DNA from: a virus
Reading direction: 5' to 3' (one strand)
IMG/VR virus record: IMGVR_UViG_3300037485_000920
Location: 1 to 33,198 of that record
Length of the DNA: 33,198 nt
Part shown: positions 4,246 through 14,066 of the stretch, one piece after another
Layout of the letters: each line of letters opens with the position of its first letter
Position numbering within the stretch: position 1 is the stretch's first letter
The notes under the pieces: model-generated
What the model saw: the letters and a program-made list of their open reading frames with translations, nothing else
Databases searched by the model: none
Told to the model about the DNA's origin: nothing
Position numbers and translations under genes: made by a program

Positions 4246-5361
4246 TCAAATTACGATACCATTTCTTTTAATAACTAAACTCGGATCAAGTTTTCTCATC
4301 CTGTCCACAATAACTTGGCAATACTTCGGGTCTAATTCCATTCCGTAGCATTTGCGTTTTAGTTGGTGGGAGGCGATCATTGTTGAGCCTGAACCGCAGA
4401 AAATATCTAAAATTGGTTTATCATCTAAATAATTAATGCACCACTCCATTAGTTTTAATGGCTTCATAGTAGGATGTTCTTTTGTTTCTCCTCCCCAGTG
4501 ATGTGATAACATTCTGCAATTCTTTCCTAAATTAGTCCAAGCAAGTTCAAATTCACTAAAACTTAATCCATCATTTTTTTTATGCCAACATAACCAATCG
4601 TTGTTTATTGGAAGTTTATTAGCAAAGTAATTACCTCCCCAAATTATTGCTTTGTTTACTAATTCTAATACATAATAAAAATCAGGTACTTCCACATCCC
4701 AATCATCTCCTCTATGAAACTTTTTCTTTCCTGTTCCTAATGTTTGTTTATTTGCATTGATTCCATAAGGAGGGTCGGTTAATAAATTTACTTCTTGTCC
4801 GTTCATTAGTAGTTCTACCTTATCAATGTCCGTACTATCCCCACAAAGCAATCGGTGCTCACCTATTTCGAATAAATCTCCTAATACAATGTCTGTTTCA
4901 ATTTGTTCTGGTACTTCGTACTCATCCTCTTCTGCTTCTAAAACTTCAGGTTTTTCAAATTCAGGTATCTCCATACCCCAATTCATTAAATCTTCCTGGT
5001 CCCATTCATTAGCAAGAGATTCCCAGTCGTTATCTCCAAATCCGACATTGTCTTTGATTATAAATGCCTTAATGTTATCTATTGATGTATTCTCTTCTAA
5101 CACTTTACAAGGTATTTCTTTAAATCCTAATTCTTTACAAGCCTTATATCTCATATTACCACCTACAATAACAAATTTGTCTTTGAGAGGATAAACTACA
5201 ATTTCTCTTAGATATAAAAACTCTGGATTGTCATTTATTGATGTTTTTAATTTTTCAAATCTATCATCTTTTATAAAACGTGGATTCTTTGGTACTCCTT
5301 CAATTTGTCCTTTGTTTTCTATCAGTTTACTTACCTGAATAATATTAGTGTTTTTGATCAT
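4246..5361 (-). CDS. ParB/Srx-like domain fused to DNA methyltransferase (371 aa)
   Basis: Residues 1-110 form a ParB/sulfiredoxin-like domain with VGGNMRYKA at 66-74. Residues from about 157 form an N6-adenine or N4-cytosine methyltransferase, with DPPYG at 196-200 (catalytic motif IV) before FCGSGST at 321-327 (S-adenosylmethionine motif I), an order of the beta class. The acidic linker at about 137-156 joins them. The protein should methylate phage DNA at a short site. No restriction endonuclease gene adjoins it, so it is an orphan enzyme that may protect the phage from host restriction or mark DNA for packaging. It overlaps the upstream 67-residue gene by 17 bases and precedes TerS, a common place for such enzymes. 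The target site cannot be read from the sequence. Confidence 0.9.
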   Translation of the reverse strand: MIKNTNIIQVSKLIENKGQIEGVPKNPRFIKDDRFEKLKTSINDNPEFLYLREIVVYPLKDKFVIVGGNMRYKACKELGFKEIPCKVLEENTSIDNIKAFIIKDNVGFGDNDWESLANEWDQEDLMNWGMEIPEFEKPEVLEAEEDEYEVPEQIETDIVLGDLFEIGEHRLLCGDSTDIDKVELLMNGQEVNLLTDPPYGINANKQTLGTGKKKFHRGDDWDVEVPDFYYVLELVNKAIIWGGNYFANKLPINNDWLCWHKKNDGLSFSEFELAWTNLGKNCRMLSHHWGGETKEHPTMKPLKLMEWCINYLDDKPILDIFCGSGSTMIASHQLKRKCYGMELDPKYCQVIVDRMRKLDPSLVIKRNGIVI

Positions 5362-11255: not shown

Positions 11256-12092
11256 TTAGTTTACAAATCCAGTGATATAATACCACACAAATAATTTCGC
11301 ATAATTAGATTCTGTCTTCCGTTGGTGATCAGGAGACTCAATACCGGAGAGTATATTTTTAGTTTGCTTCCTGGCGGATTCTGCTGCATAGGCATTAAAA
11401 GAATTCCTACCAGAGGATATGTTACGAAGAGCATCTTTTTTGGCTTTCTCATACATTTGCTTTTTGACTTCTCTCGGAAAGTCTATCTTACCAAATTCTT
11501 TTAGTATCTTCCCAAAGTACATTGGTATTTCCTGGTACTCGGAGTAGACTGCTTCTCCATTCTCTTCCAGTTTATGTTTGGCATCATTCATTACAGCCAT
11601 TGCGTGTATTCGTGCTCTCAAGTTTAGTCTGTCTATCTCTTCATAAGTTTTAGAACTGGTGTTGTCAACTTTGTTAAGTTTTTCCATTAACAAAATGTTT
11701 CTGTACTTGGAATAGGCTGTCAATAGGTCCGCAATAAAAGTGATGGACATTCTCTTATATTTGTATATGTCAAATTCAAATCTTTTCATTGCAGCACACT
11801 CAAAGGCTACTGGTATCTCATTAGGTCCTAATGTCATAAAGTTTCGTTCAATGAAATAGTAGCACTCCTTTAGGATGTTTCTTTCACTGTCAGGACTATA
11901 TCCAAAGTATTGCTCACAAGCATTGATAAGGCTACCGATAATAAAATCCATATTCACCTCTTTGTCTGTGTCTTTGATTTGGTTGTTTGATCCTAAGAAC
12001 ATCTCTTCGAATATTGATTTAATGTCCTTTGATTTCTCGTTTAAGTTTAGCAACGAATTCGCTTGTTGTGAGTTTTGGTTTAGCAGTTCCAT
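11256..12092 (-). CDS. Possible helicase loader, partner of the initiator (278 aa)
   Basis: This 278-residue helical protein begins inside the end of the initiator gene, overlapping it by 74 bases from the ATG at 12092; a longer frame from 12140 and a shorter start at 12002 are also possible. No Walker motif or nuclease motif is visible. In lambda-like replication modules the gene after the O-type initiator encodes a loader (lambda P) that brings host DnaB to the origin; the phage has no helicase gene, so it must recruit one. I infer a loader from this context. The C-terminal third is rich in Lys/Arg/Ala (KQMYEKAKKDALRN). Confidence 0.55.
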   Translation of the reverse strand: MELLNQNSQQANSLLNLNEKSKDIKSIFEEMFLGSNNQIKDTDKEVNMDFIIGSLINACEQYFGYSPDSERNILKECYYFIERNFMTLGPNEIPVAFECAAMKRFEFDIYKYKRMSITFIADLLTAYSKYRNILLMEKLNKVDNTSSKTYEEIDRLNLRARIHAMAVMNDAKHKLEENGEAVYSEYQEIPMYFGKILKEFGKIDFPREVKKQMYEKAKKDALRNISSGRNSFNAYAAESARKQTKNILSGIESPDHQRKTESNYAKLFVWYYITGFVN

Positions 12093-12906
12093 TTTGATTT
12101 GATTTTTTAGGTTCGAAAATACCTTGCCATTGATTGGCAATGCTGTTATTGATTGATTGAATTATTTCGTCTTCTGTGAAATGGGTTAACCAGGAATCTA
12201 AAGTTTTTATTCTCTGGTCTATTGCTTGTTGTGACTTGTATGGTTTTTTAATGTCATTACGATATTTGAAATATTGGTTTAGTGTTTCGATAAGATAGGG
12301 AGAAAATCTTTCAGGATAAAAATATTGAAAAACAATTTTTTCTTTCTTTACTTTTTTATCTTCCTTAACAACCACAGATTTGTCAAAATCGCCTTTACTA
12401 ATATTATCATTTATTATATTATAATTCTTATTATTATTATTATATATATTATTGTTCGGATGTACATCCGTAGGGGTACGGATTTCAATCCGTAGGGGGT
12501 TCGGGTTTTCATCCGTAGGGGGTTCGGATTTATATCCGTAGGGGGTCGGATTTGTATCCGTAGGTTCGGATGTTAATCCGTAGGTTAAAATTGAAAATAT
12601 TTCAGTTATTGCATAGTAAGTAGCACCCATTATTTGATTGTCCTGGTGTGGAGTAATAATTCCCATTTCAGACATTTTTTTTAGTCTTCTATATACAGTA
12701 TCCTTTTTTATATTTAATAATGGCAAATTAGCCATTATTAACTTATAAGATATCCAATAGTAATTGGTATTACCTTGCAACATCTTTTTAACATCACTGC
12801 ATTTTATCCATTGAGAAATAAAAGAAAGGATGTGAGCATCATAGATGTCAATATCTAATTTGCTATCAATTATCGCTTTTTGATTTATAAATAAATTGTA
12901 TCTCAT
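12019..12906 (-). CDS. O-like replication initiator with internal origin (295 aa)
   Basis: Residues 1-110 form a winged-helix DNA-binding domain of phage initiator type (DTVYRRLKKMSEMGIITPHQ). Residues 111-170 are a low-complexity Pro/Thr/Asn linker encoded by six iterons and an AT-rich tract. Residues 185-295 form a charged C-terminal helical domain with KSQQAIDQRIKTLDSWL, likely to contact the helicase loader. This three-part plan, origin repeats within the linker, matches lambda O and similar initiators. The protein would bind the iterons, open the adjacent AT-rich DNA and start theta replication. A strong terminator ends just before its start codon. Confidence 0.85.
   Translation of the reverse strand: MRYNLFINQKAIIDSKLDIDIYDAHILSFISQWIKCSDVKKMLQGNTNYYWISYKLIMANLPLLNIKKDTVYRRLKKMSEMGIITPHQDNQIMGATYYAITEIFSILTYGLTSEPTDTNPTPYGYKSEPPTDENPNPLRIEIRTPTDVHPNNNIYNNNNKNYNIINDNISKGDFDKSVVVKEDKKVKKEKIVFQYFYPERFSPYLIETLNQYFKYRNDIKKPYKSQQAIDQRIKTLDSWLTHFTEDEIIQSINNSIANQWQGIFEPKKSNQNGTAKPKLTTSEFVAKLKREIKGH
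12395..12454. other. AT-rich unwinding element of the origin
   Basis: The 60 bases next to the iterons are almost only A and T, with long TTATTATTATTA-like and ATATATATT stretches. They encode the Asn/Ile/Tyr linker of the initiator. An AT-rich tract beside iterons is where duplex melting starts in iteron-type origins, so I call this the predicted DNA unwinding element. Confidence 0.75.
12455..12586. repeat. Six iterons of the predicted replication origin
   Basis: Six direct repeats with centres 19-23 bases apart begin at about 12455, 12477, 12500, 12523, 12546 and 12565. Each has the form TTCGGAT-N4-ATCCGTAGG(GGG), so every unit also contains the inverted repeat CGGAT/ATCCG. The third unit has CGGGT in one arm. 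These are GC-rich islands within AT-rich DNA and lie inside the initiator gene, as the binding sites of lambda O do. Confidence 0.92.
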
Positions 12907-12965
12907 AAAATTAAAAAAGCCTCCAAAAGTGTGTGTAGTAGGAGATACACAACACCTCGAAGGCT
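12907..12965 (-). terminator. Strong minus-strand terminator before the initiator gene
   Basis: On the minus strand AGCCT (12965-12961) pairs with AGGCT (12922-12918), and between them GTGTTGTGTA-type sequence pairs with TACACACAC, giving a hairpin of about 19 bp with two single-base bulges, some G-U pairs and an 8-base loop. Six Ts follow, then AATTTT, and the initiator ATG comes at 12906. It would end transcripts from the promoter at 14407-14437 before the replication genes unless readthrough occurs. The remaining 62 bases up to the 149-residue gene hold no clear promoter. Confidence 0.8.
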
Positions 12966-13027
12966 CGTAATTGGGTTATATTTCTTTAAACTATAATTTG
13001 ACTCCTACACCAAAATATAATTCTAAC

Positions 13028-13487: not shown

Positions 13488-14066
13488 TTAAATAAGGTTA
13501 GACAATTCTTGTTTCTGCTCTGATGTCAACTTATACATCTTCATTGCTTCTGAAATTCGTACCAATGGCTTCTCCTTTACCCAGTTGAATACCTTCTCCC
13601 ATTTGTCTTCTGGTACTTCTTTTTGGTAGGTCAATTGTTCCTTTTGGATTGGAGCACCAATGGCATCCGTATCAGTATCGACATTAATACATAAGATGGC
13701 AGACAAAGAATATCTCTTTGCGTAAGTAATCCCACCTCCCATATCCTGAAGAGCATTGGTTCCCTTGTTGCCTGACATTGGAGAGAAAGGCATCATTGAT
13801 GTTCTAAATTCACCACTTGTGTGATAGATTGTAGTGGATAGGAAGTCCCCAGTCATATCCTGGCAGATCACAAGACCGCATTCGATAAGCATAGGTCTAA
13901 TAGTTACAAGTAAATTGTCTAAGGTTACATACCCATTTTTTAAGTGAGCATTTTTTCCATCTTTTTTAAGACTGGCGTTTTGAAATAACCCTTGAAATTT
14001 TACAAGGGCCTTAACCAGTTCTGTGATTGTTTCACTTTGGATTAGATGTTCATTTACGTTTTTCAT
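13488..14066 (-). CDS. erf: ERF-family single-strand annealing protein (192 aa)
   Basis: The signature MGGGITYAKRYSLSAILCI at 109-127, followed by D130-x-D132-x-D134, is the hallmark of the ERF (P22 essential recombination function) family; the N-terminal part with YVTLDNLLVTIRPML and the middle GEFRTSMMPF also fit. The protein should anneal complementary single strands at the ends made by the YqaJ exonuclease, circularising or concatenating phage DNA. It is the second gene of the early unit. Length (192) is typical of ERF proteins. Confidence 0.93.
   Translation of the reverse strand: MKNVNEHLIQSETITELVKALVKFQGLFQNASLKKDGKNAHLKNGYVTLDNLLVTIRPMLIECGLVICQDMTGDFLSTTIYHTSGEFRTSMMPFSPMSGNKGTNALQDMGGGITYAKRYSLSAILCINVDTDTDAIGAPIQKEQLTYQKEVPEDKWEKVFNWVKEKPLVRISEAMKMYKLTSEQKQELSNLI

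Follow-up and report, generated by a model that had tools for sequence, protein, structure and literature searches.

A locus near 12.5 kb of the IMG/VR virus record IMGVR_UViG_3300037485_000920 raises the question of where an uncultured phage begins to replicate, and of what ties that site to the protein that would recognise it. We analysed the whole stretch of 33,198 nucleotides (positions 1 to 33,198 of the record; hereafter the window), in which a repeat array lies inside the gene for an O-like replication initiator. Sequence comparison leads us to read this locus, with a probability of roughly 0.88, as a phage origin of theta replication of the oriLambda kind, located within the initiator gene and forming one cassette with the DNA-binding domain. 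This reading is based on the match of the gene to an O-like family, conservation of the repeat arms, co-inheritance of the binding domain with its repeats, and the same pairing in distant phages; together these strongly support the proposal, made in an initial annotation, of an O-like initiator with the origin in its own gene. Origins inside O-like genes are of an already known kind. The family, the rule linking iterons to the recognition motif, the natural exchange of alleles and the leader RNA described below are new.

Palindromic iterons within an O-like initiator gene

The initiator gene (12019..12906, minus strand, as are all features below unless stated) is an open reading frame of 295 codons whose 295 aa product matched PHROG_678, 'replication initiation O-like' (E 7e-18, residues 33-275). 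Along the gene, the parts are ordered as binding domain, iterons, AT tract and C-terminal domain. The predicted origin-binding domain occupies residues 1-110 (12577..12906); an AlphaFold2 model of the N-terminal 115 residues (pLDDT 81) had the winged-helix topology anticipated by the initial annotation, with the recognition-helix motif DTVYR at residues 69-73. The C-terminal domain, type A, comprises residues 173-295 (12019..12390).

Repeat search and frame analysis placed six copies of CCTACGGAT-N4-ATCCG in an array at 12454..12584, with palindromic cores at 12457-12470, 12479-12492, 12502-12515, 12525-12538, 12547-12560 and 12567-12580. Five copies of CGGATNNNNATCCG are exact and one has a single mismatch (12502, CGGGT...ATCCG); all lie within the array, and no copy of the palindrome was found elsewhere in the window. 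The start-to-start spacings are 22, 23, 23, 22 and 20 by coordinate. The initial annotation was right about the six palindromes and overstated one detail: TAGG directly follows all six, but the longer TAGGGG only four. None of 100 codon shuffles of the gene reached the observed number of identical palindromes. This statistic is conservative, since lambda O scores only 18/100, yet its annotated iterons were recovered by the repeat search. Between the iterons and the C-terminal domain lies the expected stretch of about 60 nearly pure A/T bases (12394..12453, no strand), a candidate DNA-unwinding element which, at 95% A/T, is the most AT-rich 60 bp in the window.

The iterons encode a linker rich in Pro, Thr and Asn, and could in principle be a protein-level repeat with no function as DNA. 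However, their spacings are not multiples of three, so that the copies fall in reading frames 2, 1, 2, 1, 0 and 1 and do not encode a repeated peptide. Comparison with L011, a metagenome contig carrying the same iteron motif, showed differences at 3 of 78 arm positions and 7 of 24 spacer positions. At third codon positions, the arms differed at 2 of 28 and the binding domain at 40 of 107 (Fisher p 0.0013). The use of all three frames and the conservation of the arms at synonymous positions show that selection acts on the DNA palindromes and not on the encoded peptide, and since the frame data already contradict a protein-level repeat, we give that explanation next to no weight.

Relation to the lambda origin and to other iteron arrays

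Lambda O with oriLambda, like its counterparts in P22, phi80, 82 and the Stx phages, has an N-terminal DNA-binding domain, mid-gene iterons, an AT tract on the 3' side and a C-terminal partner-binding domain. The annotated lambda O iterons, used as a control, gave the same order of parts as the window gene. Lambda-type iterons are likewise palindromic and spaced 20-24 bp, and the Stx phages also have six (PMC7466680). The window phage differs from lambda in its iteron sequence, its recognition motif and its C-terminal types, in lacking a recognisable P, in probably belonging to Bacteroidota phages, and in the natural exchange, between close relatives, of the 5' half of the gene only.

Lambda O uses its N-terminal part to bind the iterons, puts the AT-rich region under strain and then passes the site on to P and DnaB (PMC7466680, PMC6022878, PMC4488673). 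By analogy, the winged-helix domain of the window protein would bind the six palindromic iterons in its own gene, probably as one dimer per palindrome; a multi-protein complex on the iterons would strain and open the adjacent AT tract, and the C-terminal domain would then bring in the replicative helicase by way of a loader.

Palindromic sites for a winged-helix protein are also typical operators, and the solved folds nearest to the N-terminal model, all weak matches, were Fur/MarR-type winged helices, which are transcription regulators. The palindromes might instead mediate transcriptional self-repression, by the initiator or another regulator, with the origin elsewhere. We regard this as quite unlikely, because 3-8 sites about 22 bp (two helical turns) apart and downstream of the start codon reproduce the layout of the lambda O complex, a layout with mapped function in lambda (PMC7466680). 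In addition, the array here adjoins the window's most AT-rich tract, and the gene family is annotated as a replication initiator.

Iteron plasmid replicons resemble the locus in combining an initiator, iterons and an AT-rich element, and differ in that the window's iterons lie inside the gene. Plasmid iterons are normally outside the rep gene, and plasmid iteron arrays also act in copy control. This dual role, and the ability of ectopic lambda origins to block lambda replication (PMC4488673), would fit an array that is a control element acting through initiator titration, handcuffing or incompatibility, with initiation at another site. The absence of a second palindrome copy anywhere in the window and the position of the array beside the AT tract make this highly improbable.

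Exchange of the binding domain and iterons between close relatives

The C-terminal domain was found at 93-98% identity in seven contigs (L003-L009), six of which (L003-L008) span the whole gene. These six aligned with the window at 88-98% on both flanks of a block in which identity fell from 0.9-1.0 to 0.3-0.65, between ~12901 and 12395, and was high again on both sides. Within the block, L003-L008 carry an unrelated helix-turn-helix domain followed by six GCACGAATATGTGC palindromes spaced 21-27 bp and then an AT tract. The model of this second binding domain (DBD2; pLDDT 58) was too uncertain for a structure search. The drop in identity delimits an exchangeable specificity cassette (12396..12903) comprising the start codon, the binding domain, the iterons and most or all of the AT tract, part of which, being of low complexity, is bridged by the blastn alignment at the cassette border.

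A second cluster, represented by L011 and L020, is ~80% identical to the first, and its C-terminal domain belongs to a different family, PHROG_428. On this different C-terminal domain, L011 carries the window-type binding domain (DBD1; 80% aa identity) and the window's iteron motif, with spacings identical to those of the window (20, 22, 23, 23 and 22 in the direction of the gene). L020 is 98.3-98.5% identical to L011 on both sides of the cassette, and has the other binding domain together with the other iterons. The domain-plus-iteron cassette of ~0.5 kb thus appears to be inherited as one unit, with the C-terminal type following the genome backbone. The initial annotation had proposed that the gene plus origin form a portable module; exchange is indeed seen, but the unit is the 5' half of the gene only, ending at or within the AT tract.

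Two cassette alleles, with CGGAT-N4-ATCCG or GCACGAATATGTGC iterons, occur inside each of the two clusters. The DBD1 alleles of the two clusters share 85% nucleotide identity where the flanks share 78-83%, and the DBD2 alleles 83% against 77-84% in the flanks. Because divergence between the clusters is about the same for each allele as for the flanks, these values, for allele classes of one to six contigs each, are suggestive of both alleles being older than the split of the clusters.

The close relatives are all metagenome contigs, the two alleles share the sequence at the cassette borders, at which an assembler might jump from one strain to another, and each DBD1 combination is represented by one contig only. 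The apparent swap might therefore be an assembly chimera of strains with a common leader and AT tract, which would remove the exchange and leave the origin in place. However, both alleles are present in both clusters and have diverged as the flanks have, and six contigs, with six metagenome identifiers, share the combination of DBD2 and C-terminal type A. Such repeated occurrence, across two clusters and several metagenomes, speaks against strain switching by the assembler, and we consider a chimera very unlikely.

Another difference between close relatives was seen in L004, which is otherwise 96-98% identical to the window. It showed no alignment over 13646-14061, covering most of an Erf-like annealing gene (13488-14066), and this may be another exchanged segment close to the replication genes.

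Recognition motif and iteron core in distant relatives

When 84,980 genomes were searched at the DNA level for a tandem pair of window-type iterons, without reference to the encoded protein, four contigs were identified. One of these, L051, from a Pseudomonadota metagenome-assembled genome (MAG), encodes a binding-domain homologue (35% identity) with five such sites directly after the domain. The other three were rejected as iterons, being minisatellite arrays of one Tannerellaceae MAG (L049 2724-3097, L050 5655-5776 and L048 2338-2375); their 21-bp unit contains CGGATTACAATCCG, the core of the iteron palindrome. Genome contigs were also searched with a protein pattern, which yielded no relative. 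Searches by tblastn with the domain and its relatives gave matches in phages of Psychrobacter, Pseudoalteromonas, Mannheimia, Pseudomonas, Flavobacterium and Parabacteroides.

Ten members of the domain family have a recognition motif of the form D[TS]xYR: the window, L011, L051, those of Psychrobacter, Pseudoalteromonas and Mannheimia, phiAH14a, FCL-2, F116 and Medea1. All ten carry 3-8 CGGA-N6-TCCG sites just after the domain and inside the gene (0/100 codon shuffles each), mostly ~22 bp apart, in more than one reading frame and at the same position in the gene. These members span Bacteroidota and Pseudomonadota phages and one MAG. The variation in repeat number that the initial annotation suggested looking for in related phages was present in the distant relatives (3 to 8 iterons) but not in the closest ones, which have six in both types. 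Members with the motifs QSIKK, QGIIK and RQIKN carry other repeats (Campylobacter DA10 GGTAAA-type, Elizabethkingia CTAAAC-type, L012 TGAA-type), and are overall no more distant from the window than the D[TS]xYR members. This indicates that it is the recognition-helix motif, and not overall similarity, that goes with the iteron core.

The initiators of F116, FCL-2, Mannheimia 587AP2, Psychrobacter pOW20-A and Pseudoalteromonas Y7 share the domain family, the D[TS]xYR motif and intragenic CGGA-N6-TCCG arrays with the window, although their domains are only 23-25% identical to that of the window and their C-terminal parts differ from it. These five proteins are mostly annotated as 'hypothetical', and the arrays are unannotated in their records. 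A literature search, mostly without subscription journals, found no paper on the origins of F116 or of Flavobacterium phages.

A scan of viral contigs for CTACGGAT arrays gave, besides the contig of L011, mostly coding microrepeats in Thr-rich proteins, and one O-like gene with a different palindrome. This gene (L035 11585-12397, minus strand, on a 72-kb contig) has three 24-bp linker repeats containing CCTAC-N8-GTAGG, a further iteron type paired with a different binding domain. L036, which came from the scan with the second iteron and lies in a 55-kb contig, was not resolved as an initiator.

A paired-loop leader RNA upstream of the initiator

The 121 nt before the start codon (12907..13027), which lie outside the swapped cassette, are predicted to form a leader RNA with two hairpins (fold z -3.5). 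Hairpin 1 (12988-13023) presents the loop UGUAGGAG at 13002-13009. Hairpin 2 (12917-12966) is terminator-like, with the 8-nt loop UCUCCUAC at 12938-12945 and a following U6, its terminal U run lying immediately ahead of the initiator ATG. The two loops are complementary over 7 nt in the window, and over 7-8 nt overall. Hairpin 1 is almost wholly different between the window's cluster, L011 and L020, and the loop pairing is kept by compensatory change (GUAGGAG/CUCCUAC, GUAGCAG/CUGCUAC and GUAGAGAA/UUCUCUAC).

Paired-loop leaders unrelated in sequence precede the initiators of Flavobacterium FCL-2 (L054) and Parabacteroides PD691P4 (L057) (0/100 shuffles each). PD691P3 has complementary loop sequences, and its minimum-energy fold is without the loop pair; the element was absent from 16 other initiator upstream regions. 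A genome-wide hairpin scan found the element only at the leader in the window and in PD691P4; the scan needed a 5-bp closing stem and therefore missed the FCL-2 leader. A further match in the leader scan, L045, was rejected as a chance match, and Rfam gave no match anywhere in the window.

The leader may terminate transcription, mask the GGAGG ahead of the start codon, or act in trans. A speculative and rather doubtful extension is that it could be a copy-number sensor, in which leader RNA made from the growing pool of phage genomes would favour termination and hold back the initiator, in the manner of plasmids under antisense-RNA control.

C-terminal domain, neighbouring genes and host

The C-terminal domain is a candidate recruiter of a helicase loader. 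Its residues 207-267 are 50% identical to replication protein O of Klebsiella phage ST11-VIM1phi8.2, a phage in which the gene after O encodes an AAA ATPase, and whose lambdoid O gene has palindromic repeats of its own, different from those of the window. In the window, the next gene (11256..12092, 278 aa) overlaps the initiator gene by 74 nt and occupies the position of lambda P. Its first ~24 codons, in the overlap, vary with the C-terminal type, and the remainder is ~80% conserved. It had no PHROG match and no tblastn match in the phage collection, and is a candidate helicase loader by position only.

The best match of the window's terminase was to Flavobacterium phage 1/32 (46%). The assignment to a Bacteroidota phage in the initial annotation is likely on this basis, although not proven. 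Elsewhere in the window, 4246-5361 encodes a predicted N6/N4 DNA methyltransferase with an N-terminal ParB-like domain.

Discussion

Apart from the metagenomic provenance of the close relatives, several observations weigh against an origin at this locus. Raw GC skew, which the initial annotation had put forward as a check, has no inflection at 12.5 kb. For A/T skew at four-fold-degenerate sites, the best change-point falls at the initiator gene (8/1000 gene-order shuffles), but this signal is weak, being uneven on the right side and with a strong contribution from capsid genes, and we do not use it as proof. No helicase loader is recognisable, the next gene being without detectable relatives by PHROG or phage tblastn. 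The link between motif and iterons also has exceptions: the DTFYR member L046 has one full site only, the DTMQR members L057 and L058, of Parabacteroides phages, have two sites only, and the DSVSR member TJE1 (L059) has none.

Co-inheritance of domain and iterons, and the correlation of motif with iteron core, point to an N-terminal domain that is specific for its own iterons. In lambda-phi80 and lambda-82 hybrids, the N-terminus of O reportedly sets origin specificity. Exchange of a binding domain with its origin is also known from the PLE satellites of the Vibrio cholerae and ICP1 system, where it has been proposed as a means of escaping a nuclease directed at the origin (PMC8263062). As in the within-cluster exchange seen here, binding domain and iterons covary in PLE while the C-terminal domain of RepA is conserved, and modules have been exchanged repeatedly (PMC8263062). 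The PLE origin, by contrast, is intergenic and apart from repA in a satellite, whereas the domain and iterons of the window are contiguous in one phage gene. Plasmid-borne lambda origins block phages of the same origin type, and a hybrid with the replication genes of P22 escapes (PMC3349717, PMC4488673). By this analogy, the two alleles would most likely be a way of evading interference from another element that shares the origin type.

These results place the likely origin of a group of uncultured phages to within ~100 bp, and the rule linking recognition motif to iteron core also points to likely origins in cultured phages that have no annotated one, including F116, FCL-2, Mannheimia 587AP2 and Psychrobacter pOW20-A. 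The paired-loop leader is a candidate for RNA control of phage replication; if it were a copy-number sensor, its covarying loops and the two cassette alleles would be two layers of replication-compatibility type in Bacteroidota phages. With natural recombinants in which origin specificity appears to have been swapped as a block, selection for diversity of phage origins becomes testable.
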